Positions 37,739 to 64,000 of a DNA stretch of 64,000 nt are shown here, piece by piece. Every line of letters begins with the position of its first letter. Positions within the stretch are counted from its first letter, which is position 1. The notes below the pieces were generated by a model that ran no database searches, was not told the origin of the DNA, and was given only the letters and a program-made list of their open reading frames with translations. Position numbers and translations under genes: made by a program. Source of the DNA: Pedobacter montanisoli (GTDB lineage Bacteria; Bacteroidota; Bacteroidia; Sphingobacteriales; Sphingobacteriaceae); contig NZ_JALGBH010000002.1 in NCBI RefSeq assembly GCF_022809115.1, positions 1,181,543 to 1,245,542 of the forward strand. Direction: 5' to 3'.

Positions 37739-39517
37739 CTATACCGGAATAACAATCTGAATAACCGTACCTTCATTTTCTACACTGCTGATCTCGAAAT
37801 GACCGTGATAATAGCCCACTCTTTTTTCCATGTTATCGAGGCCAAAACCTAAGCTGGTTTGCAGCACATCAAAACCACAACCATCATCGGTAAACTGGAA
37901 ATGGTAACTATCGGTATATTTATAGAATTCTATGGTAACCAAATGTGCCTTACCATGCTTAAGAGCATTGCTGATGGCCTCTAAAGCAATAAGGTACATG
38001 TCATAGACCCACTTCTGCTCAATCCGTTCGGGAAAATCATAACAGAAAAGCTCAATCTCGGCATCATCCAAGCCAGCGTTCAGGATAGCAATCTGACTAC
38101 GTAAGCTGGAAACTAAGGCTCCTTCATCGAGCGCTTTGGGAAGTATCTTGTGGGAGATGTCACGAATATCGCTTGCCAGTTCGCTGATATTCTGTTTGGC
38201 CAATTTAGTATTCTTCATATCAAACAGGTGAATGATATGGGCAATTTTACTTCCTACATTGTCATGTATGATATTAGCAATGTTCCGGCGCTCCCGTAAC
38301 TGCACATGATTGATTGTTCGAAGTGAATTCTCCTTTTCCAAAATCACTTCTTTCATCAGCTCTGTATTTCTAAAAAATACTTCTACATAATTTCTTGACA
38401 ATACCACTCCAAACAGAAATACTTCGTACAGACTGGCAAATACCATCCAATTGCCTCCTAACGCATAGGGAATGAACTCAAAAGTTTCTAAGATCAGGGT
38501 ACCGCCCCATACCAACTGTGGAGCAAAAGCCAAGAGGGCATAAATTGCCTGATCTCTTTCTATCCTCAAATGCGTTACAGATGCCCAAAAAAGTACAATA
38601 ATCAACAGCATAAATAGAACATAACCCGAGATAAAGAGGTATCTGAAATCAGCATTGGGATAAATCCATAGCAAAGTTGCCGATAGCAGTACGATAAAAA
38701 GATTTACTATACACAAAAAATTAATCAATCTGTATTTGAAAAACTGATGTCCTTTTAAGTCTAAAAAACAGCAAAGGAAATAGCTTAATGCCACATACCA
38801 TAAAGCGCCGCTAAAAATCCGGGCTTCACTTAACAACAAGAGGTTTGGAAAGAGTAGGTGTTTGGCAAAATTCATCGTAATTACTACATAGCAGACTGTT
38901 AATAGTGAATAGCAGATGTAATAGGCATACAGGCGTTTTCGGGTCATCAGTAGCAGAATACCATTGATCATTAGCAAGAGAAAGGCAATACCGATGAAAA
39001 AGGCAACCAGTGCTATTTTGCTAGAAGACTGATTTTCCAGTTCGGTAAAACTGGTCAAACGAAAAGAAAATTCGAGAAATGAGGTCTGTTTTTTAATCTT
39101 CACCCAAAGGATCCGTTCTTCTCCGGGGCCTAATTTAAGCTCATAGGTAAGTGCACTCATGAAAGCTCCCCGTCCTTTGGTTCGGTCTCCCATTAGCACC
39201 ATTTGGTTCCCATCAAAAATGCTCAGGCTGTCGATATGATAATTATCAAAGCATAACCATTTAGCTACTTCTTTATGGGTGTCTTCGTTTTTGAACCTAA
39301 AATAACACCAAACCGCATCATCGCGGTTATAGCCCAGGTTAATCTTCTGATTTTCGACAAAAATTTTGAAGTTTTTCTGTTTAGCTTCTACCAATTGCCA
39401 TTTCGAATCCCGATCGATGGTGTAGGCTGCCAGCACAGAAATCTTTGGATGGGTAAAGGCCAAAGTCTTCGATAAACCCAGCAGTAAGAGGATACTAACT
39501 AAGCAGGTTATTCTCAT
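37739..39517 (-). CDS. 7TM-DISM sensor histidine kinase
   Basis: A ~592-residue kinase: signal peptide, extracellular 7TMR-DISMED2-type beta domain (residues ~25-165), seven hydrophobic helices (~170-390), then a HisKA_3-like dimerisation region with phosphoacceptor in NIANIIHDNVGSKIAH, and a HATPase_c domain (LEAISNALKHGKA, DDGCGFD, GFGLDNMEKRV). This is the NarX/LytS-like architecture that phosphorylates LuxR-type regulators. It overlaps the upstream response regulator gene by 23 bases when started at the ATG at 39517, and the two form a cognate pair. The ligand is unknown. Confidence 0.9.
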   Translation of the reverse strand: MRITCLVSILLLLGLSKTLAFTHPKISVLAAYTIDRDSKWQLVEAKQKNFKIFVENQKINLGYNRDDAVWCYFRFKNEDTHKEVAKWLCFDNYHIDSLSIFDGNQMVLMGDRTKGRGAFMSALTYELKLGPGEERILWVKIKKQTSFLEFSFRLTSFTELENQSSSKIALVAFFIGIAFLLLMINGILLLMTRKRLYAYYICYSLLTVCYVVITMNFAKHLLFPNLLLLSEARIFSGALWYVALSYFLCCFLDLKGHQFFKYRLINFLCIVNLFIVLLSATLLWIYPNADFRYLFISGYVLFMLLIIVLFWASVTHLRIERDQAIYALLAFAPQLVWGGTLILETFEFIPYALGGNWMVFASLYEVFLFGVVLSRNYVEVFFRNTELMKEVILEKENSLRTINHVQLRERRNIANIIHDNVGSKIAHIIHLFDMKNTKLAKQNISELASDIRDISHKILPKALDEGALVSSLRSQIAILNAGLDDAEIELFCYDFPERIEQKWVYDMYLIALEAISNALKHGKAHLVTIEFYKYTDSYHFQFTDDGCGFDVLQTSLGFGLDNMEKRVGYYHGHFEISSVENEGTVIQIVIPV

Positions 39518-51468: not shown

Positions 51469-52944
51469 ATGCTAAAACAAAATCTTCAGCAAAAACTGTT
51501 ACAAAAACTTTCACCTCAGCAAATTCAATTCATCAAATTGTTGCAGGTACCAACTGTTGCTTTAGATACGCGTATCAAAGAAGAATTAGAAGAAAATCCT
51601 GCATTAGAAGATTCGAGCTTAATTTCTTTAGATGAACCTAAAGGCGAATATGACGATCTTAATGATGACAAACAGGATTATGACGAGAACAGTGGTGAAG
51701 AAAGTTCTTTAGATGAGTTTAATGTAGATGATTATCTACAGGATGATGATTCAAGCGATTACAGCACCTCTTTTAATAACGGCGATGATGATGACGATAA
51801 AAAGGAAACACCTATAGCGGTTGAAAGCACTTTTTTTGAAAGCCTTCAGCAACAATTGGATCTGGTACCTCTGTCTAATCAGGATTTTGTAATTGGCAAG
51901 CAAATTATTGGCAGTCTTGATGATGATGGTTATTTACGCAGACCCATCACATCCATGATAGATGACCTGGCCTTTTCGCAAAATGTAATTGTTGAGGAAG
52001 ATGATGTAGTAGAAATGCTTAAGGTGATCCAGAATTTTGATCCGGCGGGCATTGCAGCCAGAGATCTGCAGGAATGTTTAAGCTTACAATTAAAACGAAA
52101 AGACACTTCAAATCCCATCATTAAAAAAGCGATTGAGGTTGTTGAACATCATTTAGAAGAATTTACCAAAAAACATTACGATAAACTTGAAAAATCTGTA
52201 GGTATTAGCAGTGAAGAGTTAAAAGAAGTGGTTAATGAGATCTTAAAGCTTAATCCTAAGCCGGGAGACTCAAACCAGGTTACTACAAAACAGCTACAAA
52301 TTATACCCGATTTTCATATCAGCAATAACGATGGCACTTTAATTTTAACGTTAAATGCCCGTAATGCTCCTGAGTTGCGAGTTAGCCGCTCTTATATGGA
52401 AATGTTTGATCATTATGAGAAAGCCTCTCAAAAAGATAAAAAACTTAAAGAAGCAGTACAGTTTGTTAAACAGAAATTGGACTCTGCCAAATGGTTTATT
52501 GATGCTATTAAGCAAAGACAACAAACTTTATTGAAAACGATGAATGCCATTATGCATTATCAGTATGAGTATTTTTTAACCGGCGATGAGCGTAAGCTTA
52601 AGCCTATGATCTTAAAAGATATTGCTGATAAAATTGATATGGATATTTCAACGGTTTCGCGTGTAGCCAATTCTAAATATGTGCAAACAGAATTTGGTAC
52701 TTTTCTGCTAAAATCTTTCTTTTCTGAAGCTATACAAACAGAAAGCGGAGAAGAAGTTTCAAACAAAGAGGTTAAAAAAATTCTTGAAGACTGCATTAAC
52801 AAAGAGGATAAACGTAAGCCTCTTGCTGATGAGAAGTTAACAGAAATCCTGAAAGAACATGGTTATAATATAGCCAGAAGAACTGTTGCTAAATACCGTG
52901 AGCAGATGAATATTCCGGTAGCAAGGCTACGCAAAGAGCTATAA
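51469..52944 (+). CDS. rpoN: RNA polymerase sigma-54 factor
   Basis: A 491-residue sigma-54. Region I: LKQNLQQKLLQKLSPQQIQFIKLLQVPTVALDTRIKEELEENPALE. An acidic region II (DDLNDDKQDYDENSGEESS...DDDDDKK) follows, then the core-binding region and the DNA-binding end with the RpoN box ARRTVAKYREQMNIP. Transcribes genes with -24/-12 promoters together with enhancer-binding ATPases. Its stop overlaps the convergent PorP gene by 6 bases. Confidence 0.97.
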   Translation: MLKQNLQQKLLQKLSPQQIQFIKLLQVPTVALDTRIKEELEENPALEDSSLISLDEPKGEYDDLNDDKQDYDENSGEESSLDEFNVDDYLQDDDSSDYSTSFNNGDDDDDKKETPIAVESTFFESLQQQLDLVPLSNQDFVIGKQIIGSLDDDGYLRRPITSMIDDLAFSQNVIVEEDDVVEMLKVIQNFDPAGIAARDLQECLSLQLKRKDTSNPIIKKAIEVVEHHLEEFTKKHYDKLEKSVGISSEELKEVVNEILKLNPKPGDSNQVTTKQLQIIPDFHISNNDGTLILTLNARNAPELRVSRSYMEMFDHYEKASQKDKKLKEAVQFVKQKLDSAKWFIDAIKQRQQTLLKTMNAIMHYQYEYFLTGDERKLKPMILKDIADKIDMDISTVSRVANSKYVQTEFGTFLLKSFFSEAIQTESGEEVSNKEVKKILEDCINKEDKRKPLADEKLTEILKEHGYNIARRTVAKYREQMNIPVARLRKEL

Positions 52945-53919
52945 TCTTATTCTTGCTGTAATTTCATGAGAACCAGAGGTAATACTCTTGATCTCTGATG
53001 TGGTATAATCATAAGTATAACCCACACTTACCTTATTCATCACATCAAAACCAAATGAACCTGTAAAAGCATCGTTTTTACGGTAACCGGCTGCTAACCA
53101 AACCAGGTTCTTATAGCCTACCTTTAAATTTACGTCAAATGCTTTGGGCATAGGGTTTACATATTTCAGCATTACAGAGGGTAGCACTGAAAAGTTGGTA
53201 TTTACCCAAAACCTGTATCCAGCGGTAACAAAATAATGTGCGGCATCTTTACCTTCTGTGTACTCACCATCAAATGCAAGTTTATTTTTAATCATCTGCT
53301 GCATTGAGGCACCAACATAATAGCCCGATCCATATAAATAAATACCCGCATTTAAATCTGGTGTGTATTTATTAATTTGTTCTGAAGTTCCTACCACCGG
53401 GTCATCAGGTTCCTCAAATTTTAATGCAGCATTATCTAAACCAAGTCTGTTAACTCCTGCCCCAAAACCAACCGCAAGATTAGCCACATTTGCAATAGAC
53501 AAATGATAAGCATAAGTAAAATTTGCTGTTAATCTGGTCAAAGGTCCCGTTTTATCGCTCAAAAAAACCACACCTATTGCATGGTGCGATAAAGAAGACT
53601 GATAATCAAACATTTCATCTTTGGTTTCAGGATCATTAATTCCCAGATCACTCGCCGTATAAGTAGCCATATCTCCGCCAAAAGAAACAGGCATGCTCAT
53701 GGTTAAATAAGCTGTTTTGGGTGCACTCTCCACTTTCTGCCACTGGTTACGCAGCCCCATCCTGATGTCTATACCATTGTACATTCCTGTAACAGCAGGG
53801 TTAATTACCGACATATTTTGCTGGTATTGCGAATAATGGGGCTTTTGCTGTGCATATGCACTTAATGCAGCAGATAGTAAAACGACCAATCCTGTTAATC
53901 TGTATTTAATTCCCATCAT
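52939..53919 (-). CDS. PorP/SprF family type IX secretion outer-membrane protein
   Basis: A 326-residue exported beta-barrel protein with the PorP/SprF pattern: QQKPHYSQYQQNMSVINPAVTGMYNGIDIRMGLRNQW after the signal peptide, HHAIGVVFLSDKTGPLTR, LNAGIYLYGSGYYVGASMQQ and a terminal SVGYTYDYTTSEI. Such proteins sit next to type B T9SS cargo and help retain it at the surface. Its start overlaps the adhesin stop by 4 bases (ATGA-like), forming an adhesin-porP pair. Confidence 0.92.
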   Translation of the reverse strand: MMGIKYRLTGLVVLLSAALSAYAQQKPHYSQYQQNMSVINPAVTGMYNGIDIRMGLRNQWQKVESAPKTAYLTMSMPVSFGGDMATYTASDLGINDPETKDEMFDYQSSLSHHAIGVVFLSDKTGPLTRLTANFTYAYHLSIANVANLAVGFGAGVNRLGLDNAALKFEEPDDPVVGTSEQINKYTPDLNAGIYLYGSGYYVGASMQQMIKNKLAFDGEYTEGKDAAHYFVTAGYRFWVNTNFSVLPSVMLKYVNPMPKAFDVNLKVGYKNLVWLAAGYRKNDAFTGSFGFDVMNKVSVGYTYDYTTSEIKSITSGSHEITARIRL

Positions 53920-56900
53920 CTTAAAACCGTTACAGAACCTGTGTATCTTTTTCGCCCGTTATTAGGCTCAATAATGTAATAATAAACTCCAACAGGAACA
54001 TCTATCCCGTTAAAACGTCCGTCCCATGGCGTGGTATAAGGTTTGGCAAAGAATACCTTTTGCCCGTAACGATTAAATATGGTTACTGTGCCTTCTTTAA
54101 TTGTTTCTAAATATTTAATATTCCAGGTATCGTTTTTCCCATCGCCATTTGGACTAAATACATTAGGTATATCTGGATTTTCATGTACAAATACATTAAA
54201 AGTTTTATAGGTGGTGCATTTATCAGATTTTACTTCTAAAGTATAAGTAGTAGTTTTATCCGGACTTGCCACAGGATTTAGCTCTGTATCGCTACTTAAT
54301 CCATCTGATGGCGACCATTTATAAATAAGTTTGTTACCTGTTACCCCCACATTGAACTTTTTCTCTCCGCCCAGTATGATATGCATATCATCACCTTTTA
54401 TAATTTGTGGATTTTCATTTACTTCAATGCTAAAGGTCTTTTCATCCGTACAGGCATGGTCTGTGGTAAATACCACTTTAATATCAAATTTACCAGGCCC
54501 TGCTATTGCGGGACTAAACAATCCTGATGCTGACACGCCTTTACCTGTAAACACAGCATTTACAGGTACATTATTCTCATTATTAAATATCAGTTGTACC
54601 GGACTGTCATATTCACAAAGAGGTGGTACATTTTCAATCTTTACCACAGGTGCAGGATAAACTGTTACCTGTATAGGATTAGAAGTGGTATAACAGTTCT
54701 GACCTGAGTAAGCCACCATTACCACATTATAAGTTTCAATTTTACCTGTATTAGGATACTTATGGGAGAAAATCTGTCCCGGTTGCGGTTTGCTATATGC
54801 AACTGTTGAGGCTGTATTGTTTTTACCTGCTTTATAATCAAAAATCCATTCTACCCTTGTAATAGACCCGAAGCTAACTGAACTGTTTTGTTCAAATAAG
54901 ATTTCGCTATTGGTACAAAACGTTTGGTCTGATTTAGCTTTGATTTCTGTAATAAGTGGAGTTGCTCCATTAATTACTACTTGTTTGGTCAATGTTACCG
55001 AACAACCATTTAGATCTGTAGCTGTTACCTTTACCGTATATTTACCTACACTGTTATACTTATGCTTAGGATTTTGTAAAGTACGTTGTGAAAGGTCATT
55101 TGAACCATCGCCAAAATCCCATGACCATGCAGTGATATTTCCAGAAAGCACACGACCTTCAAAACTTACCATATCTGCCACACATGATTCAGGCAAATCA
55201 AAATCTACTGTTGGAGATAAATTAACTACGATGTCTTTTTCTATTGTTTGAGAACACATTCCACCGGTCGTTGCAGTCAGTTTTACTTTATAAGTACCTT
55301 CTTTAGTATAAACATGTTCGGGGGTTTCACTGGTAACAATAGCCGTACCATCGCCAAAATCCCATTGATAAGCTATAGCCGTATTTTGCGGAACCAGAGT
55401 TTTATTGATAAAAGTTAGTTTATTACCCGAACAGCCTATAGCTGGTATTTCAAAATCTGCAACCGGCAGATCTATAATCATAATTTTTTTGGTGATAAAA
55501 AGCGCACAGCCCGTTTCTGTGGTACCGTATAATTTGATTTCCTTTTCGCCGGGAGTTGTATAAGCATGCTTAGTATCTTTATCTGTTGAGATTTCACCAT
55601 CTCCAAAATCCCATTTCCAGTTCTGGGTTGTATTGGTAATACCTAATGACAGGTTTTTAAAATCGATTGAAGCGTTGATACAGGCAGCGGCAGGAAGAGA
55701 AAAATCAGGTTTAAACACATCAAATTTAGTAGAAATTACCTGTTCACTGGAACAATCTTTACCTGCAGGCGGAACTACAGTAGCCGTAAGTTCAAAGGTA
55801 CCTCCTTGCGCAAAATAACTGGCAGGAACATTATACTTGTATAAATAGTAAGTTGTACCATCAACAACATATGTGGTATAGGCAGGTGTATTAATGGTTT
55901 CTACTTTCTTACCATTATTTAAATTCCAAATGATCTTATCTGTTAGGAAAGGTAATTGCAATACGCTTTCAAAATCTGTTCCCGCACAAAAATTAGTTGA
56001 AGCAACGCTACTACCCTGCTCAAACATTTTAATATTTGAGCTAAGGTTTTTTAAATCTGTACCTGCTAAATAAGCATAAGATTCTACTGTACCATAGCCA
56101 TAAGCAATGGCTACGAAACCGCCATCTGCTTTTAATCTATGTTGCGCAGCCATACCGGTAACATCAATAACCGCATAACTGTAATCACTGTTAGGTATGG
56201 TTTTAAAACTCCCGTTAAAATTATTTCCATCTAAAGTAAAACCATTAATATCTGCTGTTTTGATAATGATGTTTAAGTAATAATTTATAATGTTGGTATT
56301 TACTCCTGTTACACTATTTAACTTTGAATATACCGTTATATCCTTCAATGTTTGCTCTATAGGATTCAATATGGTCATTTCCGGATCGCCGGGAAAAGGC
56401 TGATTGGGGGTTTGAATTGGATGATTATTAATATTACAGGTTTGTGAGGTCTGATATTGTGCTACAGCTATAGGATGATCAGACTTAATAACATTGGCTG
56501 TTTTTGAAGAAAATGTAATCATACTTCCCTTTGAATAAGGGTTTTTTAGTGTAATTCCATTTACAGTGCTTGTACTTCCGTTAATATTAACTGTGGTATT
56601 ATCTTCTGCTACTATTATCCTTATCACATCGCTGTTCCCATGTTCAGTATTGTAAAAGGGTGCCGAAACAAAGTTTTTACCCCATGAAGAAACCGGAAAC
56701 ATCTGCTGTAAAAGGTTATCTCCTCCACTTGGGTTGCGGCTACTTCCACTTTCACAAAATGCCGTCCAAGTACTACCAGAGAATACGGCAAAAGCTTTAC
56801 AGTTGGTAGATTTAATATAAGTTCCCGAAACGTCTCCTGAAGCTTGAAACTGATAAATTTCACCTTTATTTAAGGTCAACTGAAATGCCTGCCCCGCTTT

Positions 56901-57464
56901 GCGGTTTGCATTTGAACTGGTTTGTGTAGGTAATATTTCCAATTTAGTATTGTCTTCAATACTTACAATGGTAAACTGCGAATAAGGAGGTATATTAGCT
57001 GTACCGCCATTCTCATAAGAAAATGTATAATATTGGTTTTCTAAAGCTGATGTGGGCAAAACCAGTGTAGATCCCGTACGGGCATTATTAGATATAACCT
57101 CATACAGAGAAACAGGTTGAGTTGTAGTAACATGAACAGCTTTATTTTTTTCAACCTGGTCAGAAGTTCCTATATAAACATCAACTGTATTAGGGTTAAT
57201 AAAAACAGGTGTAACCACATTAGCAGTTACTGTGCCGCTGGCAATTACTTTTGTTCCAATCGTTACGGTATAATCGGTATTTACATCTGATGAGAGGAAA
57301 AGCGTCATCCTTGAAGCCAGACCATCTATATGCCCGGTATAGGCTAACCAGAAATCGGTGCCTTTATTGGATGTATATTGTGCAAACGCACCGTGTATAT
57401 TTAAAACAATAAAAAAGCTAAGAACCCAAAAGCCTTTGCACTTGCTAAAAATGCTATTAAGCAT
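53916..57464 (-). CDS. giant PKD-domain surface protein with gliding-motility (type B) C-terminus
   Basis: A ~1182-residue secreted protein starting at ATG 57464 (MLNSIFSKCKGFWVLSFFIVLNIHGAFA signal). The N-terminal ~500 residues contain an IgGFc-binding-like region (TSNKGTDFWLAYTGHID..., NYTVTIG-type strands), followed by several PKD domains (WKWDFGDGE, YQWDFGDGT, WSWDFGDGSND). The C terminus is the gliding-motility-associated CTD (NIPNVFSPNGDGKNDTWNI, IFNRYGQKVFF, GVYYYIIEPNNGRKRYTGSVTVLR), a type B T9SS signal. Likely an adhesin paired with the PorP/SprF gene downstream. A TTG at 57497 is less likely. Confidence 0.88.
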   Translation of the reverse strand: MLNSIFSKCKGFWVLSFFIVLNIHGAFAQYTSNKGTDFWLAYTGHIDGLASRMTLFLSSDVNTDYTVTIGTKVIASGTVTANVVTPVFINPNTVDVYIGTSDQVEKNKAVHVTTTQPVSLYEVISNNARTGSTLVLPTSALENQYYTFSYENGGTANIPPYSQFTIVSIEDNTKLEILPTQTSSNANRKAGQAFQLTLNKGEIYQFQASGDVSGTYIKSTNCKAFAVFSGSTWTAFCESGSSRNPSGGDNLLQQMFPVSSWGKNFVSAPFYNTEHGNSDVIRIIVAEDNTTVNINGSTSTVNGITLKNPYSKGSMITFSSKTANVIKSDHPIAVAQYQTSQTCNINNHPIQTPNQPFPGDPEMTILNPIEQTLKDITVYSKLNSVTGVNTNIINYYLNIIIKTADINGFTLDGNNFNGSFKTIPNSDYSYAVIDVTGMAAQHRLKADGGFVAIAYGYGTVESYAYLAGTDLKNLSSNIKMFEQGSSVASTNFCAGTDFESVLQLPFLTDKIIWNLNNGKKVETINTPAYTTYVVDGTTYYLYKYNVPASYFAQGGTFELTATVVPPAGKDCSSEQVISTKFDVFKPDFSLPAAACINASIDFKNLSLGITNTTQNWKWDFGDGEISTDKDTKHAYTTPGEKEIKLYGTTETGCALFITKKIMIIDLPVADFEIPAIGCSGNKLTFINKTLVPQNTAIAYQWDFGDGTAIVTSETPEHVYTKEGTYKVKLTATTGGMCSQTIEKDIVVNLSPTVDFDLPESCVADMVSFEGRVLSGNITAWSWDFGDGSNDLSQRTLQNPKHKYNSVGKYTVKVTATDLNGCSVTLTKQVVINGATPLITEIKAKSDQTFCTNSEILFEQNSSVSFGSITRVEWIFDYKAGKNNTASTVAYSKPQPGQIFSHKYPNTGKIETYNVVMVAYSGQNCYTTSNPIQVTVYPAPVVKIENVPPLCEYDSPVQLIFNNENNVPVNAVFTGKGVSASGLFSPAIAGPGKFDIKVVFTTDHACTDEKTFSIEVNENPQIIKGDDMHIILGGEKKFNVGVTGNKLIYKWSPSDGLSSDTELNPVASPDKTTTYTLEVKSDKCTTYKTFNVFVHENPDIPNVFSPNGDGKNDTWNIKYLETIKEGTVTIFNRYGQKVFFAKPYTTPWDGRFNGIDVPVGVYYYIIEPNNGRKRYTGSVTVLR

Positions 57465-57576
57465 ACAATAAAAATCAGTTAATAGTTTGTTGGGCAAAAC
57501 AATGAGCGCTATTTTTGCCTTATGCTAAAAACAGAAGGAATACCTGCAAAGACTTGTTACCGTTCTTTTTCTTAAG

Positions 57577-58032
57577 CTAAGAAAGCAAACTTTGCCTTGC
57601 TATAAATTCTAATTGTTTGTTGGCTATCAGCAGTTTTTCAGTTAACTCCTTGTTTTCTTTACGCAAGTTATATATTTCTATGGCTTTGTCAATATTAATC
57701 TTCAAATCTTCTAATATCCACGGTTTCTGAATATATCTATAAACTTCGCCTTTGTTAATAGCATCTATTACAGCATCAATATCTGTATAACCTGTTAAAA
57801 TCATTCTTATAGGGTCCGGATGTACCGCTAATATCGAAGCTAAAAATTCAACTCCGGTGGTTTTTGGCATCCTTTGATCAGAAATGATGACCTGAATATC
57901 TTCAGTTTCAAGTATTTTTTTGCCTTCCTCTGCAGATTCGGCCGTAAAAACTTTATACATTCTTCTGAAGGTAGCCATAAACGCACTTAAATTATGTGGT
58001 TCATCGTCAACGTATAGTATATTTGCGCTCAT
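57577..58032 (-). CDS. stand-alone receiver-domain response regulator
   Basis: A 151-residue receiver: ILYVDDEPHNL with D9-D10, phosphoacceptor D52 (IISDQRMPKTTGVEF), LTGYTD switch and K in YIQKPW. A C-terminal helix (KENKELTEKLLIANKQLEFIA) follows, without an output domain. Its receiver is closely similar to that of the hybrid at 63298 (shared DQ.MP.TTGVEF, HPDPIR, YRYIQKPW). It is divergent from the Rv1355c-like gene across a palindrome-bearing 111-base gap. Confidence 0.9.
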   Translation of the reverse strand: MSANILYVDDEPHNLSAFMATFRRMYKVFTAESAEEGKKILETEDIQVIISDQRMPKTTGVEFLASILAVHPDPIRMILTGYTDIDAVIDAINKGEVYRYIQKPWILEDLKINIDKAIEIYNLRKENKELTEKLLIANKQLEFIARQSLLS

Positions 58033-58083
58033 ATATTGGTAATAAAAAGTTAAAATTACCTTTTTAATGTTACTCTAAAAAAC

Positions 58084-58119
58084 TAATTTAGTTGTTTTAA
58101 TATTGTAACGACTAAATTA
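58084..58119. promoter_or_regulatory. divergent-promoter palindrome
   Basis: TAATTTAGT (58084-58092) and ACTAAATTA (58111-58119) are exact complements; GTT/AAC inside also pair, with one T/G mismatch. It is centred between the two divergent genes and is a candidate operator. Confidence 0.5.
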
Positions 58120-58143
58120 TTTAAAAGTTTATTTTTTTACTAA

Positions 58144-60474
58144 ATGTTTTCTAAAACTAAATCGGAAATAATACCCGGCTCGCTATTAGCTCATCTCCAT
58201 AATACCGATTTTACTTACACACCCGTTTTTTTCGATTTAAATATAGAAGAGCAAAAAGAAAATTTGCTTGATCTCTTAGAAAACAACAATCGTATTGAAG
58301 TATTTGACTCTATAATTGCACAGGTTTCAGAATATTTAAAATGTGTTAAACCTGGTTTAGCGCTCTTACCAAAAGCAGAGCTTGAAAAACTGGTTGAGCA
58401 AAGATTTGCCGAAAGATCAACCGATTATTATGGACTGTGGGTGTTCTATCCCTGGAATAATCGCCTTGTTCACCTTTTAAACGAAGAAGAATTTTGTGAG
58501 GTTAGAACTAACCGAAATAAGTATAAAATAACTTCAGAAGAACAACACACCCTGTCTCAAAAAAAGATTGGTATAATGGGTCTTTCGGTTGGACAGTCTG
58601 TTGCCTTAACTCTGGCTATGGAGCGCGGTTTTGGCGAGTTACGCATAGCCGATTTCGATTTACTGGATTTAAGTAATTTAAACCGTATCAGAACAGCAGC
58701 ACACAATATTGGTTTACCTAAAACTGTAATTGTAGCCCGCGAAATTGCCGAACTGGACCCTTACCTAAAAGTTACCTGCTTTCATGAAGGTATCACTGCT
58801 AACAATCTAGATGTTTTCTTAAACGGAAATGGCAAACTGGATTTGCTTATAGATGAATGCGACAGTTTTGACATTAAAATAAATGCCAGAAAAAAAGCTA
58901 AAGCATTAGGCATACCTGTATTAATGGAAGGTAGTGACAGAGGTACAATAGACATAGAACGTTTTGATCTGGAACCGCAAAGACCTGTGTTACATGGTAT
59001 GGTTGACCATTTAGATATGGACAATTATGCAAACCTGAAAACCATGGAAGAAAGGTTACCTTATATTAGTGCTGTTACCGGAATTGAAACGCTTTCTCCA
59101 CGTATGAAAGCTTCTGCTGTAGAACTTATGGCTACCATCTCTACCTGGCCGCAACTGGCCAGTGCTGTAACTTTTGGCGGTGGTGTTTCTGCTGATCTTT
59201 CAAGAAAAATATTACTTCATCAATTAGATATTTCAGGAAGATTTTTCCTTGATCTGGATGAACTGATCAGTGATCCTGATAAAACGGAACAGAAACAAGA
59301 TCATCAGGAGATTAAACCATGGTCTGTAACAGATATTGAAACTTATATTCAGGATAACAGTTTTGATCAGTATGTTCACAGTGGCATCAATTTAGAAGAA
59401 AAAGAGCTTGCCTTGCTTATAGAAGCAGCCCGTAAGGCACCATCAGGTGGGAATAACCAACCATGGAGGTGGCATTATCAAAACAGAACATTACACTTAT
59501 TTCTTGAAGAAAGTTCTGCTCAGGCTTATTTAGATCCTGCATTTATTTCTTCATATATCTCTTTAGGTGCTGCAATAGAAAATCTTTTGTTAACCGCAGC
59601 CACACTTAAGCTTAAAGTAAACTGGCAGTTTACACCTCTTTTGGCGCCTAAACACATTGCATTATTTAGTTTTGAAAGAGGTTTTGAAGCCAATGATCTG
59701 CAACTCAGCCTTGCTGCACAAATAACAAACAGACATACCAACAGAAAAATCACGCCTAAACAGTTAATATCTACAGATAAACTGGAATATTTGGGCGGAT
59801 TAGCAGAAGATATTGATGGCATCAGCTGTAAGTTTATTAGTGATACCGAAAAAATTGCACTCATTTCTAATATTGCTGCTCATTGTGATTTGTTACGTAT
59901 GTTTATACCTGAAGCATACCATGATTTCGTAAACAGGGAAATGCGATGGAATTTAGATGAGGTAAACTCTACAGAAGATGGTATAGGCATACATACCTTA
60001 GATCTTGGCAATACAGACCAGGTGGGCATCAAATTGGCTAAGGATGCAAAAGCGATACAATTTTTAAAAACGATAAACGGAGGAAGCGGATTTAAACGCC
60101 TTACCAGAGATCAGTTGATGGCCTCTTCGTGTTTAGGTTTAATTTCTGCAAGTGATATGAGTACTGTTTCTTACCTCAAGGCAGGTCTTGCTGCCGAAAG
60201 GTTATGGTTAGGTGCTACAGATATAGAAATACAGGTACACCCTTTAAATGTACCACTGATCTTCTTTTACAAAAATTCCATTGAAAATAATTTAAGTATC
60301 GATTCTTTTGAAAAAGAGAAATTATTTAATTTGGAAAGCGATTTAAGAGGTATTTTTGAGCTTGATGAGCAGCAGCAACCTATGTTTATGTTTAGATTAT
60401 TTATAGCCAGTTCTTCACCTGAAAGAACCATAAGAAAATCAACTTATAAAATATTTTCAAGTGGAAGAGAATAA
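58144..60474 (+). CDS. Rv1355c-like ThiF (E1-like) adenylyltransferase / nitroreductase fusion
   Basis: A 776-residue protein. N-terminal ~110 residues are unassigned; residues ~140-370 form a ThiF/E1-like Rossmann domain (KKIGIMGLSVGQSVALTLAMERGFGELRIADFDLLDLSNLNRIR, then KLDLLIDECDSFDIKINARKKA). The second half from ~410 is a nitroreductase-like FMN domain (LLIEAARKAPSGGNNQPWRWH). This matches the Rv1355c family. The E1-like loop reads GLSVGQS rather than GxGxxG and no CxxC zinc pair is visible, so substrate activation may be non-canonical. It is followed by a GNAT-like gene overlapping by 14 bases. Function unknown; possibly small-molecule signalling. Confidence 0.8.
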   Translation: MFSKTKSEIIPGSLLAHLHNTDFTYTPVFFDLNIEEQKENLLDLLENNNRIEVFDSIIAQVSEYLKCVKPGLALLPKAELEKLVEQRFAERSTDYYGLWVFYPWNNRLVHLLNEEEFCEVRTNRNKYKITSEEQHTLSQKKIGIMGLSVGQSVALTLAMERGFGELRIADFDLLDLSNLNRIRTAAHNIGLPKTVIVAREIAELDPYLKVTCFHEGITANNLDVFLNGNGKLDLLIDECDSFDIKINARKKAKALGIPVLMEGSDRGTIDIERFDLEPQRPVLHGMVDHLDMDNYANLKTMEERLPYISAVTGIETLSPRMKASAVELMATISTWPQLASAVTFGGGVSADLSRKILLHQLDISGRFFLDLDELISDPDKTEQKQDHQEIKPWSVTDIETYIQDNSFDQYVHSGINLEEKELALLIEAARKAPSGGNNQPWRWHYQNRTLHLFLEESSAQAYLDPAFISSYISLGAAIENLLLTAATLKLKVNWQFTPLLAPKHIALFSFERGFEANDLQLSLAAQITNRHTNRKITPKQLISTDKLEYLGGLAEDIDGISCKFISDTEKIALISNIAAHCDLLRMFIPEAYHDFVNREMRWNLDEVNSTEDGIGIHTLDLGNTDQVGIKLAKDAKAIQFLKTINGGSGFKRLTRDQLMASSCLGLISASDMSTVSYLKAGLAAERLWLGATDIEIQVHPLNVPLIFFYKNSIENNLSIDSFEKEKLFNLESDLRGIFELDEQQQPMFMFRLFIASSSPERTIRKSTYKIFSSGRE

Positions 60475-61171
60475 ACCAGAGATCACAGATTTATACTTTA
60501 AAGCGTTTAGAGCGGTTGAAGACAGGGCGTCCTGCATGAAATTTATTGAGGGGCATACGCATGTATTGGAAATATTTGGAATTACACAAATTACCTCTGC
60601 AAAAATAGATTGGGTATTAAATCCAGATGTATATGTTGTACAGGTTTCTGCAGAAGAAGGCGGAAAAGCATTAGGTGGTGGCCGTATTCACATGGCTAAC
60701 AGAAAGCAACCTTTACCCATTGAAGACGCTGTAGGTGAGATGGATAGCAGAATTTATGGCTTGGTAGATCAGCAGGTTGAGATCGGTATCGGAGAATTTT
60801 GTGGCTTATGGAATTCATGGGAAATTGCAGGGCTTGGTGTAGGAAGTATTCATTTAGGTCGTACTTTTATTGCTCTGGCGCATACTTTAAAGCTAAAAAC
60901 TTTATTGGGTTTATGTGCTCCGGCTACTTACCGCAATTCTTTAAGAGTGGGTTTCAGAGTGCTTAAAGAGCTAGGTGTTGATGGTAAGTTTTATTATCCA
61001 GCCGAAGATCTGACAGCTACCGGGTTAATTATTGAAGATCTGGAAAACCTGCCCCTTGCCGTAGAAGAAGAACGTTTGGCCATACAGAAATTAAGAACAA
61101 AAGAATTAACAAAAACAACCATAACCACCTCAAAAGGCAATGAAATAACTTTGCACTTCGACCTTCTCTAA
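60461..61171 (+). CDS. GNAT-like protein of unknown function (GTG start)
   Basis: A 236-residue protein. The GTG at 60461 starts inside the preceding gene. A beta-alpha arrangement with VYVVQVSAEEGGKALGGGRIHMANRK, EIGIGEFCGLWNSWEIAGLGVGSIHLGRTFIALAHTL and a final LLGLCAPATYRNSLRVGFRVLKELG resembles an acyl-transferase (N-acyl homoserine-lactone-synthase or GNAT) fold, but no acetyl-CoA motif is certain. It is translationally coupled to the Rv1355c-like gene and followed two bases later by a kinase gene, suggesting it makes or modifies a small molecule sensed by the downstream kinases (inference). Confidence 0.6.
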   Translation: MEENKPEITDLYFKAFRAVEDRASCMKFIEGHTHVLEIFGITQITSAKIDWVLNPDVYVVQVSAEEGGKALGGGRIHMANRKQPLPIEDAVGEMDSRIYGLVDQQVEIGIGEFCGLWNSWEIAGLGVGSIHLGRTFIALAHTLKLKTLLGLCAPATYRNSLRVGFRVLKELGVDGKFYYPAEDLTATGLIIEDLENLPLAVEEERLAIQKLRTKELTKTTITTSKGNEITLHFDLL

Positions 61172-61172
61172 A

Positions 61173-63275
61173 ATGAAAGTAGTTAAATTTATCATTCTCA
61201 TATTTTCGCTATTTTTCTTTGGAAAGAGCTTTGGGCAAAGCAAACTGCAACTCTATCCCCTTTCAGATAGTACAACTTATACCATAAATGATGTTATTGC
61301 ACACAGTGATAAATTTCATGGTGTGAGTTCAAACCTGTTGAATTTAGGATTAGGCCATAAGAATGTATGGCTTAAAATTATCAATCCTAAAGCCGCCGAC
61401 ATGGAATCTTTGCTGATTGACCAGTCGAGACTTAGTTATCTAAATCTTTATTTCGTAAAAGACCAAAAGGTAGTTAAAACCATAGCTTTAAGTGGTACCC
61501 AACTGGTTCCCTGTTCTAAAGAAATAGGAAATGTTAAGATTTTTAAGATCAATGAGTTTCAAGGAAATACAGATCTCTATTTAAACCTGATTTCTAAAGA
61601 AATCTTTCTGGCTCCTGTTATGCTCAACACAAAAGCTGAGAATACTGCCCTGCTCATGAACAGAGATGTTTATTTTGGTCTTTATACAGGTGCCGTACTC
61701 ATCATGTTTGTTTACAACTTATTTCTTTTTTTAAGTGTAAGAGACAAAAACTATTTCCTGTATATTTCTTATATGCTGTTTACCTGGCTAACCCAGATAT
61801 CTATTATGGGCTACGCTACCAAGTTTTTTTGGCATAACAGCAATTGGATGCACCAGCATTCAGTCGTTATTTTTTCTATACTAGGTTTAATTTTTGGTAT
61901 TTACTTTACTTTAAATTTCCTGAAAGTACAGCAATACATACCTAAACTGGCGGTATATTTTAAAATATTATTGATTGTTTCCATTGTTGTACTTGTTCTG
62001 TCTGTATCTACAGGTTCAAGTGTATTTTTTCCTATTATGCAGTTATTAACGCTTTTAAGCTGCATTTTGGCCTATATCTCTGCTATTATCATTTATTTTA
62101 AAAAGAAATACTCACCTGCACGTTATTATCTTATTGCCTGGTCTATTCTGATAATAGGTGTAATTCTGTTCCTGATTAAAGACTATGAGATTATACCCTA
62201 TAACAACTTTACTATCTATATGCTCCAGATTGCCACTGTGGTAGAAATATCACTGCTTTCTTTTGCACTTGCAGACAGTATTAACTTTGTAAAGAAAGAG
62301 AACGAAAGCATACAGAAACAGGCGCTTGCTACTTCTCTTGAAAATCAAAAGCTTATCCAGGAACAAAATATTATTTTGGAGCAAAAAGTTAAGGAGCGAA
62401 CAGAAGAATTAGAAGAGATCAATCACACTTTAAACCATACTTTAACTAACCTTAAATCTACTCAGTCGCAACTGGTAGATGCCGAAAAAATGGCTGCTTT
62501 AGGTCAGTTAACTGCAGGTATTGCACATGAGATTAACAACCCTATAAACTTTGTTACTTCTAATATCAAACCTTTACAATTAGATATTGACGATCTGAGA
62601 GAAATCATCAGTAAGTATGAACATCTGGATCCTGAAGGAGATATAACACAGCAATTAAAACAAATCAACGACTTTAAGAAACAAATAGATCTTGATTTTG
62701 TCAATAAAGAAATTACTTCTCTCCTTTCGGGGATTAGTGAAGGTGCGAAACGAACAGCCGAAATTATCAGAAGTTTAAGGAATTTCAGTCGCGTAGATGA
62801 AACGGATATGAAGCCTGTAGATCTGAATGAAGGTTTGGCTTCTACTCTGGTATTGGTACGGAACAATATTCCCGATAACCTTACCGTTATTAAGGAATTC
62901 GGCGTAATACCTAAGGTAGAATGCTTACCGGGAAAAATCAATCAGGTTTTCATGAATTTGGTTTCTAATGCCATACAGGCTATTAAATCTAAAAATGAAC
63001 CTGATGTAGAAGAGTTTTTAACTGTAAAGACCTGGAGCATTGATGACCAGGTATTTATCAGCATAAAGGATAGTGGAACAGGAATGACAGAAGAAGTGAG
63101 AAATAAGATTTTTGAACCCTTTTTTACCACAAAAGATATTGGAGAAGGTACCGGTTTAGGATTGTCTATTGTGTTTGGGATTATTGAAAAACATAAAGGA
63201 AACATAGAAGTTATTTCACAGCTGGGTGAAGGAACAGAATTTATTATTACCTTGCATACTAATCTACCAAACTAA
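61173..63275 (+). CDS. 7TM-DISM sensor histidine kinase
   Basis: A 700-residue kinase: signal peptide, DISMED2-like extracellular domain to ~165, a seven-helix membrane region (~170-370), a coiled-coil (NQKLIQEQNIILEQKVKERTEELEEINHTL), HisKA with the phospho-histidine in LTAGIAHEINNPINFVTSNI, and HATPase_c (FMNLVSNAIQAIK, DSGTGM, GTGLGLSIVFGI). Starts two bases after the GNAT-like gene, so co-transcribed, and is followed by a receiver-kinase hybrid 22 bases later. Confidence 0.92.
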   Translation: MKVVKFIILIFSLFFFGKSFGQSKLQLYPLSDSTTYTINDVIAHSDKFHGVSSNLLNLGLGHKNVWLKIINPKAADMESLLIDQSRLSYLNLYFVKDQKVVKTIALSGTQLVPCSKEIGNVKIFKINEFQGNTDLYLNLISKEIFLAPVMLNTKAENTALLMNRDVYFGLYTGAVLIMFVYNLFLFLSVRDKNYFLYISYMLFTWLTQISIMGYATKFFWHNSNWMHQHSVVIFSILGLIFGIYFTLNFLKVQQYIPKLAVYFKILLIVSIVVLVLSVSTGSSVFFPIMQLLTLLSCILAYISAIIIYFKKKYSPARYYLIAWSILIIGVILFLIKDYEIIPYNNFTIYMLQIATVVEISLLSFALADSINFVKKENESIQKQALATSLENQKLIQEQNIILEQKVKERTEELEEINHTLNHTLTNLKSTQSQLVDAEKMAALGQLTAGIAHEINNPINFVTSNIKPLQLDIDDLREIISKYEHLDPEGDITQQLKQINDFKKQIDLDFVNKEITSLLSGISEGAKRTAEIIRSLRNFSRVDETDMKPVDLNEGLASTLVLVRNNIPDNLTVIKEFGVIPKVECLPGKINQVFMNLVSNAIQAIKSKNEPDVEEFLTVKTWSIDDQVFISIKDSGTGMTEEVRNKIFEPFFTTKDIGEGTGLGLSIVFGIIEKHKGNIEVISQLGEGTEFIITLHTNLPN

Positions 63276-63297
63276 ATTAATACTTATATGAGTTCTA

Positions 63298-64000
63298 CTA
63301 CCGTAAGGGTTTTGTACATTGATGATGAAGAAAACAATCTTCAGGCATTTAGAGCCAGCTTTAGAAGGCAGTACGAAATTTATACTGCTATCTCGGCACA
63401 AGAGGGATTAGAAATCTTGCAGAACATTGAAATGCATGTTATCATTGCAGATCAGAAAATGCCCAACACCACAGGTGTAGAATTCTTTAAAAGTATTGTA
63501 CATACACACCCAGATCCTATCCGTATTTTACTAACCGGATATACTGATATAGAAGCTTTAGCTGATGCGATTAATCATGGAGATATTTACCGCTATATTC
63601 AGAAACCCTGGAACGATTTAGAACTGCATAATTCTATCAAAAATGCTTATGACGCCTATAAATCTAAAATAGATTTACGCAACAAAATGCAGGAACTTGA
63701 AAAAACCAATGACGAGCTGAACCGCTTTATTTATAGTATCTCGCATGAGTTAAGAGCTCCTTTGGTATCAGTTCTGGGTATCTTGAATTTAGTAAAGATG
63801 GAAGGTTTATATAATTCAAGCGGTGAGTACTGGGGCTTAATAGAAGCCTGCTCTAATAAACTGGACTACTATATCCAAAAAACGCTACAATATTATAAGA
63901 ATGCAAAAAATGTAGAAGAAAAGAGCGATATAGATTTTGAAAGTTTATTGAAAGAACTGATAGATCTGTACACTTATATTGACATAGAAACTGTATTTAC
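63298..64000 (+). CDS. receiver-histidine kinase hybrid (3' end outside window)
   Basis: ATG at 63298; open to the last base, at least 234 residues. N-terminal receiver: VLYIDDEENNL, phosphoacceptor D55 (IIADQKMPNTTG), LTGYTD and YIQKPW. A linker helix and a HisKA domain follow, with the phospho-histidine in FIYSISHELRAPLVS (about H153). A HATPase_c domain should follow beyond the window. The receiver is a near-paralogue of the stand-alone regulator at 57577. It lies 22 bases after the 7TM-DISM kinase, consistent with a phosphorelay. Confidence 0.9.

Follow-up and report, generated by a model that had tools for sequence, protein, structure and literature searches.

A predicted N-acyl amino acid synthase cassette linked to a 7TM-DISM sensor kinase in Pedobacter montanisoli and other Bacteroidia

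The window analyzed here, a stretch of 64,000 nucleotides from the 3.29 Mb genome of Pedobacter montanisoli, ends in a cluster that combines two enzyme genes, resembling those for the oxazolone-forming TrzS and TrzA, with genes for two-component signalling proteins. A preliminary description made from the letters of this stretch had listed five open reading frames, each of which was found again where it had been placed. The unit itself proved to be larger, with six genes, five co-oriented and one divergent receiver gene (RR1), and runs past the window end:

57577-58032, minus strand: RR1, receiver-only response regulator of 151 amino acids (Pfam Response_reg)
58033-58143, no strand: divergent intergenic region with a conserved near-palindrome (comparison of spacers between RR1 and the first gene)
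58144-60474, plus strand: fusion of ThiF and a nitroreductase-type domain, TrzS-like, 776 amino acids (NCBIfam NF005901; Pfam ThiF, Nitroreductase)
60461-61171, plus strand: predicted TrzA-like N-acyl amino acid synthase of 236 amino acids, GTG start (predicted structure, homologues)
61173-63275, plus strand: 7TM-DISM sensor histidine kinase with a periplasmic domain (Pfam)
63288-64000 and past the window end, plus strand: hybrid of receiver and histidine kinase, 359 amino acids in the contig (Pfam Response_reg, HisKA, HATPase_c)
equivalent to 64357-64773, outside the window, plus strand: RR3, receiver-only, 138 amino acids, overlapping the hybrid gene (Pfam Response_reg alone)

The genes are tightly packed: the start of trzA overlaps the 3' end of trzS by 14 bases and a single base separates trzA from the kinase gene. 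The same gene set recurs in most of the relatives examined, far above chance; the ThiF domain of the cassette shares 94% identity with its counterpart in Pedobacter sp. UBA1951.

The first of the two enzymes had been described as an E1-like/nitroreductase fusion resembling Rv1355c, and this was borne out by Pfam (ThiF and Nitroreductase) and by a match of 763.5 bits to NF005901, the Rv1355c family (cut-off 476), that spans residues 21-770 of the protein and positions 7-717 of the 722 in the profile. The chemistry of this family was published in 2025. Rv1355c is TrzS, which together with the acyltransferase TrzA (Rv1356c) yields N-acyl tryptazolones in mycobacteria; its ThiF domain cyclizes the substrate using ATP and its flavin domain desaturates the product using O2 (PMC12856293). 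Oxazolones are hydrolysed in acid and in alcohol (PMC12856293). Tyrazolones are the products of the related TyzABC and OxzAB systems (PMC10404671, PMC12856293). Among the homologues of the window protein Asp240 was kept in 86 of 87; of the 59 that bear the oxidase part, 57 kept Arg530 and likewise 57 kept Arg534. Their matching to Asp217 and Arg540 of the Mycobacterium smegmatis enzyme is a guess from motif position.

The second enzyme, noted before as GNAT-like, matched no Pfam or NCBIfam family at E<=0.1, and its assignment came from structure. Its AlphaFold model (mean predicted local distance difference test score, pLDDT, 91.8) returned FeeM in the top Foldseek rows, and FeeM (2g0b_A) was also its best structural match, with Z 17.0 over 181 residues at a root-mean-square deviation of 2.8. 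The GNAT enzyme 1xeb came within one Z unit of FeeM (Z 16.2, 145 residues), followed by the acyl-homoserine lactone (AHL) synthases LasI (Z 15.7), TofI and BjaI (Z 15.2). FeeM and the LuxI-type AHL synthases share the fold of TrzA, whereas sequence identity to them is only 6-14%, no Pfam family matches and GNAT 1xeb scores nearly as high. By its modelled fold, the protein is a TrzA-type N-acyl amino acid synthase with a FeeM/LuxI-like architecture. An AHL synthase proper was considered and rejected, as no Pfam family, the autoinducer-synthase family PF00765 included, was hit at E<=0.1. In a Saprospiraceae metagenome-assembled genome (MAG) a single protein of 632 amino acids fuses ThiF to a TrzA-type acyltransferase (L276:6409-8307), with no kinase nearby. 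Two tandem TrzA-type genes were seen in one cassette, found in two loci that carry an identical TrzS sequence (L265:11439-12886 and L081).

The TrzS family match, the published chemistry, the fold of TrzA and the ThiF-TrzA fusion together identify TrzS and TrzA of the window, by homology, as an oxazolone pathway, and the cassette very probably produces an N-acyl amino acid derivative. The ThiF fold could also be taken to mean that the protein acts as an E1 on another protein in a ubiquitin-like or defence reaction, as does Cap2 of the CBASS type, and PADLOC did give weak E1-E2 matches, the best at 36.7 bits. The six cassette proteins, when scanned with PADLOC, did not include an E2, a JAB or a ubiquitin-like partner, the Rv1355c family match is full-length, and the enzyme is partnered by, and in one case fused to, TrzA. 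E1-like conjugation was thus rejected on the NF005901 match and the PADLOC result, and we consider it extremely improbable.

The kinase that follows TrzA contains the Pfam domains 7TMR-DISM_7TM, 7TMR-DISMED2, HisKA and HATPase_c (E-values: PF07695 7.5e-44, PF07696 5.9e-7, PF02518 9.4e-23, PF00512 3.4e-6), and its N-terminus reads like a signal peptide. In the model of residues 1-400 (pLDDT 91.3) the periplasmic part matched RetS (3jyb, 2xbz), and the kinase also has a 7TM bundle. The phosphotransfer residues examined are intact throughout, in counts that take in near-duplicate loci: the phospho-His, N-box Asn and G1 Asp of the kinase are invariant in 158/158, the phospho-Asp, Thr and Lys of the RR1-type receivers in 172/172, the phospho-Asp and phospho-His in all 108 hybrids of 350-375 amino acids, and the RR3 phospho-Asp was present in 85/85. 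RR1 also ends in a conserved QLEFxxRQxLLS-like tail (Arg in 167/172, Gln in 164/172), perhaps a docking or degradation peptide. The close paralogy of the two receivers noted earlier was confirmed, RR1 and the hybrid receiver being 55% identical over 130 amino acids, which is what one would expect if a single kinase acts on both. Elsewhere in the window, at 38399-39424 on the minus strand, lies a gene for another, distantly related 7TM-DISM protein (596-amino-acid frame, 62 bits to the cassette profile).

The linkage of the enzymes to the kinase was surveyed in 395 Bacteroidia genomes, with TrzS called at E<=1e-60, TrzA at E<=1e-20 and the cassette-type kinase at 300 bits or more, the last threshold being chosen after the scores had been seen. 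Profiles A1 and A2 came from cassette genes of genomes inside this sample, which makes their scores partly circular but not the positions of the hits, and counts from related genomes are non-independent. TrzS was found in 69 genomes, TrzA in 75 and the kinase in 79. TrzA and the kinase occurred together in 73 of the 75 TrzA-positive genomes, all 73 pairs lying within 4.5 kb, and the divergent receiver and the receiver-kinase usually accompany the pair. The two TrzA genomes lacking the kinase were G272, in which TrzA lies at a contig end, and G242; conversely, only 6 of the 320 TrzA-negative genomes held a kinase of at least 300 bits. From the side of TrzS, 65 of the 69 genomes also held such a kinase, the remaining four being G227, G242, G321 and G087 (contig end). 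Rv1355c-like genes standing mostly without these kinases had been named in advance as the finding that would refute the proposed signalling unit; given the 65 of 69, this was not found within Bacteroidia, and it was the case in the Actinomycetota inspected.

Two further samples gave a similar picture. Among 59 relatives a strong TrzS match was present in 22, all of which also held a 7TM match of at least 321 bits, the next paralogue scoring 280; the kinase occurred without strong TrzS in G028, where a TrzS tail lies at the contig edge, and in G046, which carries a methyltransferase instead. A scan by ThiF alignment covered the 80 best-matching of 575 relatives and is thereby weighted towards close ones; these loci came from Pedobacter, Nubsella, Parapedobacter, Mucilaginibacter, Daejeonella, Sporocytophaga, Flavobacteriales and other MAGs, with the type strains P. 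nyackensis DSM 19625 (L211) and P. nutrimenti DSM 27372 (L215) among the cassette carriers, and 13 of them share the TrzS sequence with loci of the genome sample. TrzA and the kinase were present in 74 of these best 80, a tally in which the TrzA part of the L276 fusion is uncounted. Four of the others (L233, L237, L243, L253) end no more than 0.8 kb past TrzS, so that the true exceptions are L276 and L244, the latter being an additional copy within the MAG that also holds L220. A phylum-wide draw of 326 genomes yielded 12 with TrzA, of which 11 were already in the class sample; the lone TrzA genome outside Bacteroidia (G512) combines TrzA with the 7TM kinase, a receiver protein and, where the contig begins or ends, a fragment of ThiF. 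A full Bacteroidota-type cassette was also seen in a betaproteobacterial MAG (L263), on a contig bearing the label Azovibrio restrictus, probably through binning contamination.

The tailoring enzyme of the cassette turned out to be exchangeable. In seven genomes (G046, G138, G171, G222, G363, G383, G414) ThiF is replaced by a protein of 251-256 amino acids placed between TrzA and the kinase; the seven form one family (31-91% identity), and the four scanned by Pfam (L168, L183, L179, L182) are class I S-adenosylmethionine-dependent methyltransferases. In G313 an ICMT-type methyltransferase (PF04140) takes the place of ThiF; ICMT enzymes methylate carboxylates. After de-duplication, the 140 loci comprised 106 with ThiF joined to the flavin domain (FDO), 26 with ThiF alone, six with the methyltransferase, one with ICMT and one with none of these. 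The ThiF-alone proteins, about a fifth of the loci, have 342-408 amino acids, and no FDO match was found anywhere in the fetched loci. When the types were mapped by parsimony on a TrzA tree of 139 rows, several of them with long branches, 20 changes were needed over all tailoring types compared with a shuffled mean of 31.0; ThiF-FDO and ThiF alone accounted for 14 changes, and the methyltransferase versus the ThiF types for five. On well-supported branches alone, counted label by label, there were 12 changes for FDO, 15 for ThiF and three for the methyltransferase. The tree includes five of the seven methyltransferase genomes; L179 was left out for its stretches of N and L185 for its truncated kinase.

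In G248 the TrzA-kinase block has no TrzS, which lies on another contig. The swaps of tailoring enzyme and this separated TrzS indicate that evolution keeps a core of synthase, receptor kinase and receivers, and that the tailoring of the N-acyl amino acid varies. The common theme of the tailoring enzymes would be that they mask the carboxylate, much as the lactone does in AHLs. Roseovarius contains methyl esters of N-acyl alanine, for which a synthase gene had not been found at the time of the report (PMC11580390). For the methyltransferases in the N-acyl tyrosine clusters of Planctomycetota, C- or O-methylation on the tyrosine side has been proposed (PMC12479983).

Clustered genes can travel together, and the genomes compared are related; the pattern might then reflect mere vertical inheritance of an old cluster in which enzymes and kinases are functionally untied. 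TrzA is patchy (75 of 395 genomes), yet the kinase is co-retained in 73 of the 75. Gene order has also been reshuffled with the same set kept, TrzA standing ahead of TrzS and RR1 at the far end in L082, L134, L247, L249 and L250, and the tailoring enzyme has changed repeatedly. Inheritance without a functional tie is very improbable in our judgement.

More probably than not, in our view, the six genes work together as a synthase-receptor signalling module. In such a module TrzA, judged by its homologues, would N-acylate an amino acid, probably an aromatic one, from acyl-CoA; the ThiF domain would adenylate the carboxylate and close it into an oxazolone ring, which the flavin domain would desaturate with O2. 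The final product, or the N-acyl amino acid that precedes it, may reach the periplasm of the same or of neighbouring cells and bind the linked kinase, either in its RetS-like periplasmic domain or in its 7TM bundle. The kinase, given intact residues and paralogy, would phosphorylate the twin receivers of RR1 and the receiver-kinase, and the latter would relay to RR3 on the same grounds. The output may be lineage-dependent, with DNA-binding regulators of the NarL/LuxR type in some cassettes. The preliminary description had proposed that the two enzymes make or alter a small molecule which the kinases then sense: its first half now stands by homology, and its second half derives from linkage, from which we find it somewhat probable that the linked kinase senses an N-acyl amino acid derivative. 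The wider proposal, that carboxylate-capped N-acyl amino acids (the oxazolone, the saturated azlactone, possibly the methyl ester) are the autoinducers of dedicated 7TM-DISM kinases, we hold to be evenly balanced.

The relation between enzymes and kinase may also run the other way, the kinase responding to some other cue, from the environment or the envelope, and its relay adjusting oxazolone synthesis, with the lipid as the end product, be it a membrane lipid, an antimicrobial or a redox-active compound. Operon-like packing and conserved linkage are equally expected under such production control, and retention of the kinase upon replacement of the tailoring enzyme is allowed by it too. Subinhibitory antibiotics induced oxazolones in several proteobacteria, a link to stress (PMC12856293). 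The window-type cassette terminates in RR3, a receiver without an effector domain, and Pfam found no DNA-binding, autoinducer-binding or LuxR-type domain in its six proteins, NarL-type regulators being present in other lineages; control of the operon would therefore need a further protein. We regard production control as possible, if rather unlikely.

Several observations weigh against a module in which the kinase senses the cassette's own product. Linkage alone cannot distinguish product sensing from production control. Kinase scores overlap, the lowest linked copy having 306 bits and the highest unlinked one 345, and the two kinds are therefore not separable by score alone. TrzS-like genes stand without a nearby kinase in G227, G242, G321, L244 and L276, and contig ends are no explanation there. 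In distance matrices, with permutations that ignore phylogeny, the periplasmic and 7TM parts of the kinase did correlate with TrzA at r 0.29 and 0.35 (partial, controlling for the kinase core and RR1), which speaks for the module; the partial correlation of RR1 with TrzA, controlling for the kinase core, was higher at 0.41, so that the signs of co-evolution do not single out ligand recognition. In Actinomycetota 13 plasmid records were matched, and none of the four loci inspected carried the kinase; the best-covered of these plasmid homologues are about 31-33% identical over 85-87% of TrzS. Clusters with ThiF and nitroreductase genes in other phyla gave N-acyl dehydrotyrosines, and no oxazolone was seen (PMC12479983). 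Finally, tryptazolones were reported to be more abundant inside the cells, although their N-acyl tryptophan precursors were found mainly in the supernatant (PMC12856293).

 On a Rhodococcus plasmid (L279:2808-4546) the gene beside trzS, annotated as hypothetical, matches the Bacteroidia TrzA profile (24.7 bits, E 1e-7), and a GGDEF gene adjoins the locus, much like the cyclic di-GMP genes that flank the chromosomal trz locus of Mycobacterium tuberculosis (PMC12856293). A Streptomyces plasmid (L280:6131-9045) encodes a ThiF protein 44% identical to the ThiF domain of the window, with no FDO part detected, directly followed by a ketoacyl-ACP synthase III; the pair suggests another pathway built on the same ThiF.

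As to the output of the relay, the surroundings of RR1 and the regulators of other cassettes were compared. The near-palindrome ACTAATTTAGT lies in the spacer between RR1 and TrzS, with its longer exact copy at 58082-58099. ACTAA(0-2)TTAGT occurred in 17 of 131 intergenic regions between RR1 and the first gene, against 0.32 expected by shuffling; all 17 come from Pedobacter, Nubsella or a Sphingobacteriaceae MAG, two pairs being from the same genome. The longer pattern of ACTAATTTAGT had one exact match in the whole P. montanisoli genome and no regulon emerged; with up to two mismatches it gave 15 matches there, fewer than the 26 of a backwards control. A Bacteroidota promoter pattern was seen in the divergent regions in 2 of 55 in the forward direction and in none in the reverse. 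On the RR1 strand two further genes follow:

53916-57497, minus strand: large IgGFc-binding/PKD protein with a CHU_C type IX secretion signal (Pfam)
52939-53919, minus strand: PorP/SprF, a lineage-specific neighbour (Pfam)

A PorP/SprF homologue followed RR1 on the same strand in 34 of 161 RR1 loci, only in Pedobacter, its congeners and Nubsella (L004, which ends before this gene, was left out, and some genomes entered twice). Because the RR1 strand runs into the CHU_C/IgGFc-binding protein and PorP/SprF, surface adhesion or gliding is a candidate output in Pedobacter-like genomes. Five other cassettes (L183, L042, L235, L246, L254) contain a PAS/HisKA_3-type receiver-kinase and/or a receiver-GerE regulator of the NarL/LuxR type; the latter offer a possible entry point to the regulon:

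L183:11374-12015, L042:13902-14609, L235:12336-12998, L246:15552-16190 and L254:14627-15280: receiver-GerE regulators beside the receiver-kinase

Compared with known systems, the cassette shares N-acylation, cyclization and desaturation with OxzAB of Pseudoalteromonas rubra and TyzABC of M. tuberculosis, but for these no receptor kinase or receiver genes are mentioned in the accessible parts of the reports (PMC10404671, PMC12856293). Like LuxI-LuxR and other quorum-sensing pairs, it binds a synthase genetically to a presumed receptor; it differs in the class of signal, in the class of receptor, a 7TM kinase in place of LuxR, and in its interchangeable tailoring, and its role in signalling is a predicted one. 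With the RetS/SagS-type 7TMR-DISM kinases of Pseudomonas the cassette kinase has the 7TM bundle in common, and its periplasmic domain is RetS-like. The architecture of RetS and SagS includes a fused receiver domain; the cassette kinase, unlike them, has none and stands in an operon with a lipid synthase.

A synthase-kinase linkage with exchangeable tailoring was not reported in the open-access literature searched, which is not proof of its absence elsewhere. The unit had initially been presented as one not recognized as described: within that literature this holds for the kinase linkage, whereas the enzyme chemistry was already published. What appears new, on the same basis, is the class-wide synthase-receptor unit; its individual parts, and the suggestion that oxazolones signal, were known. 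The authors of the tryptazolone study regarded what oxazolones do physiologically as a major question still awaiting an answer, pointed out their likeness to cell-cell signals and raised signalling as a possibility (PMC12856293).

The class-wide lock between synthase and kinase offers a testable answer to the question of that role, in culturable Pedobacter, and the natural swaps of tailoring enzyme provide ready comparisons of ligand specificity. If the proposed module is true, it would assign a function to oxazolone lipids, and to 7TM-DISM kinases a lipid ligand made by the cell itself. We know of no established LuxI-type system in Bacteroidota; this phylum would then gain a system of lipid signals whose synthase has a LuxI-like fold.

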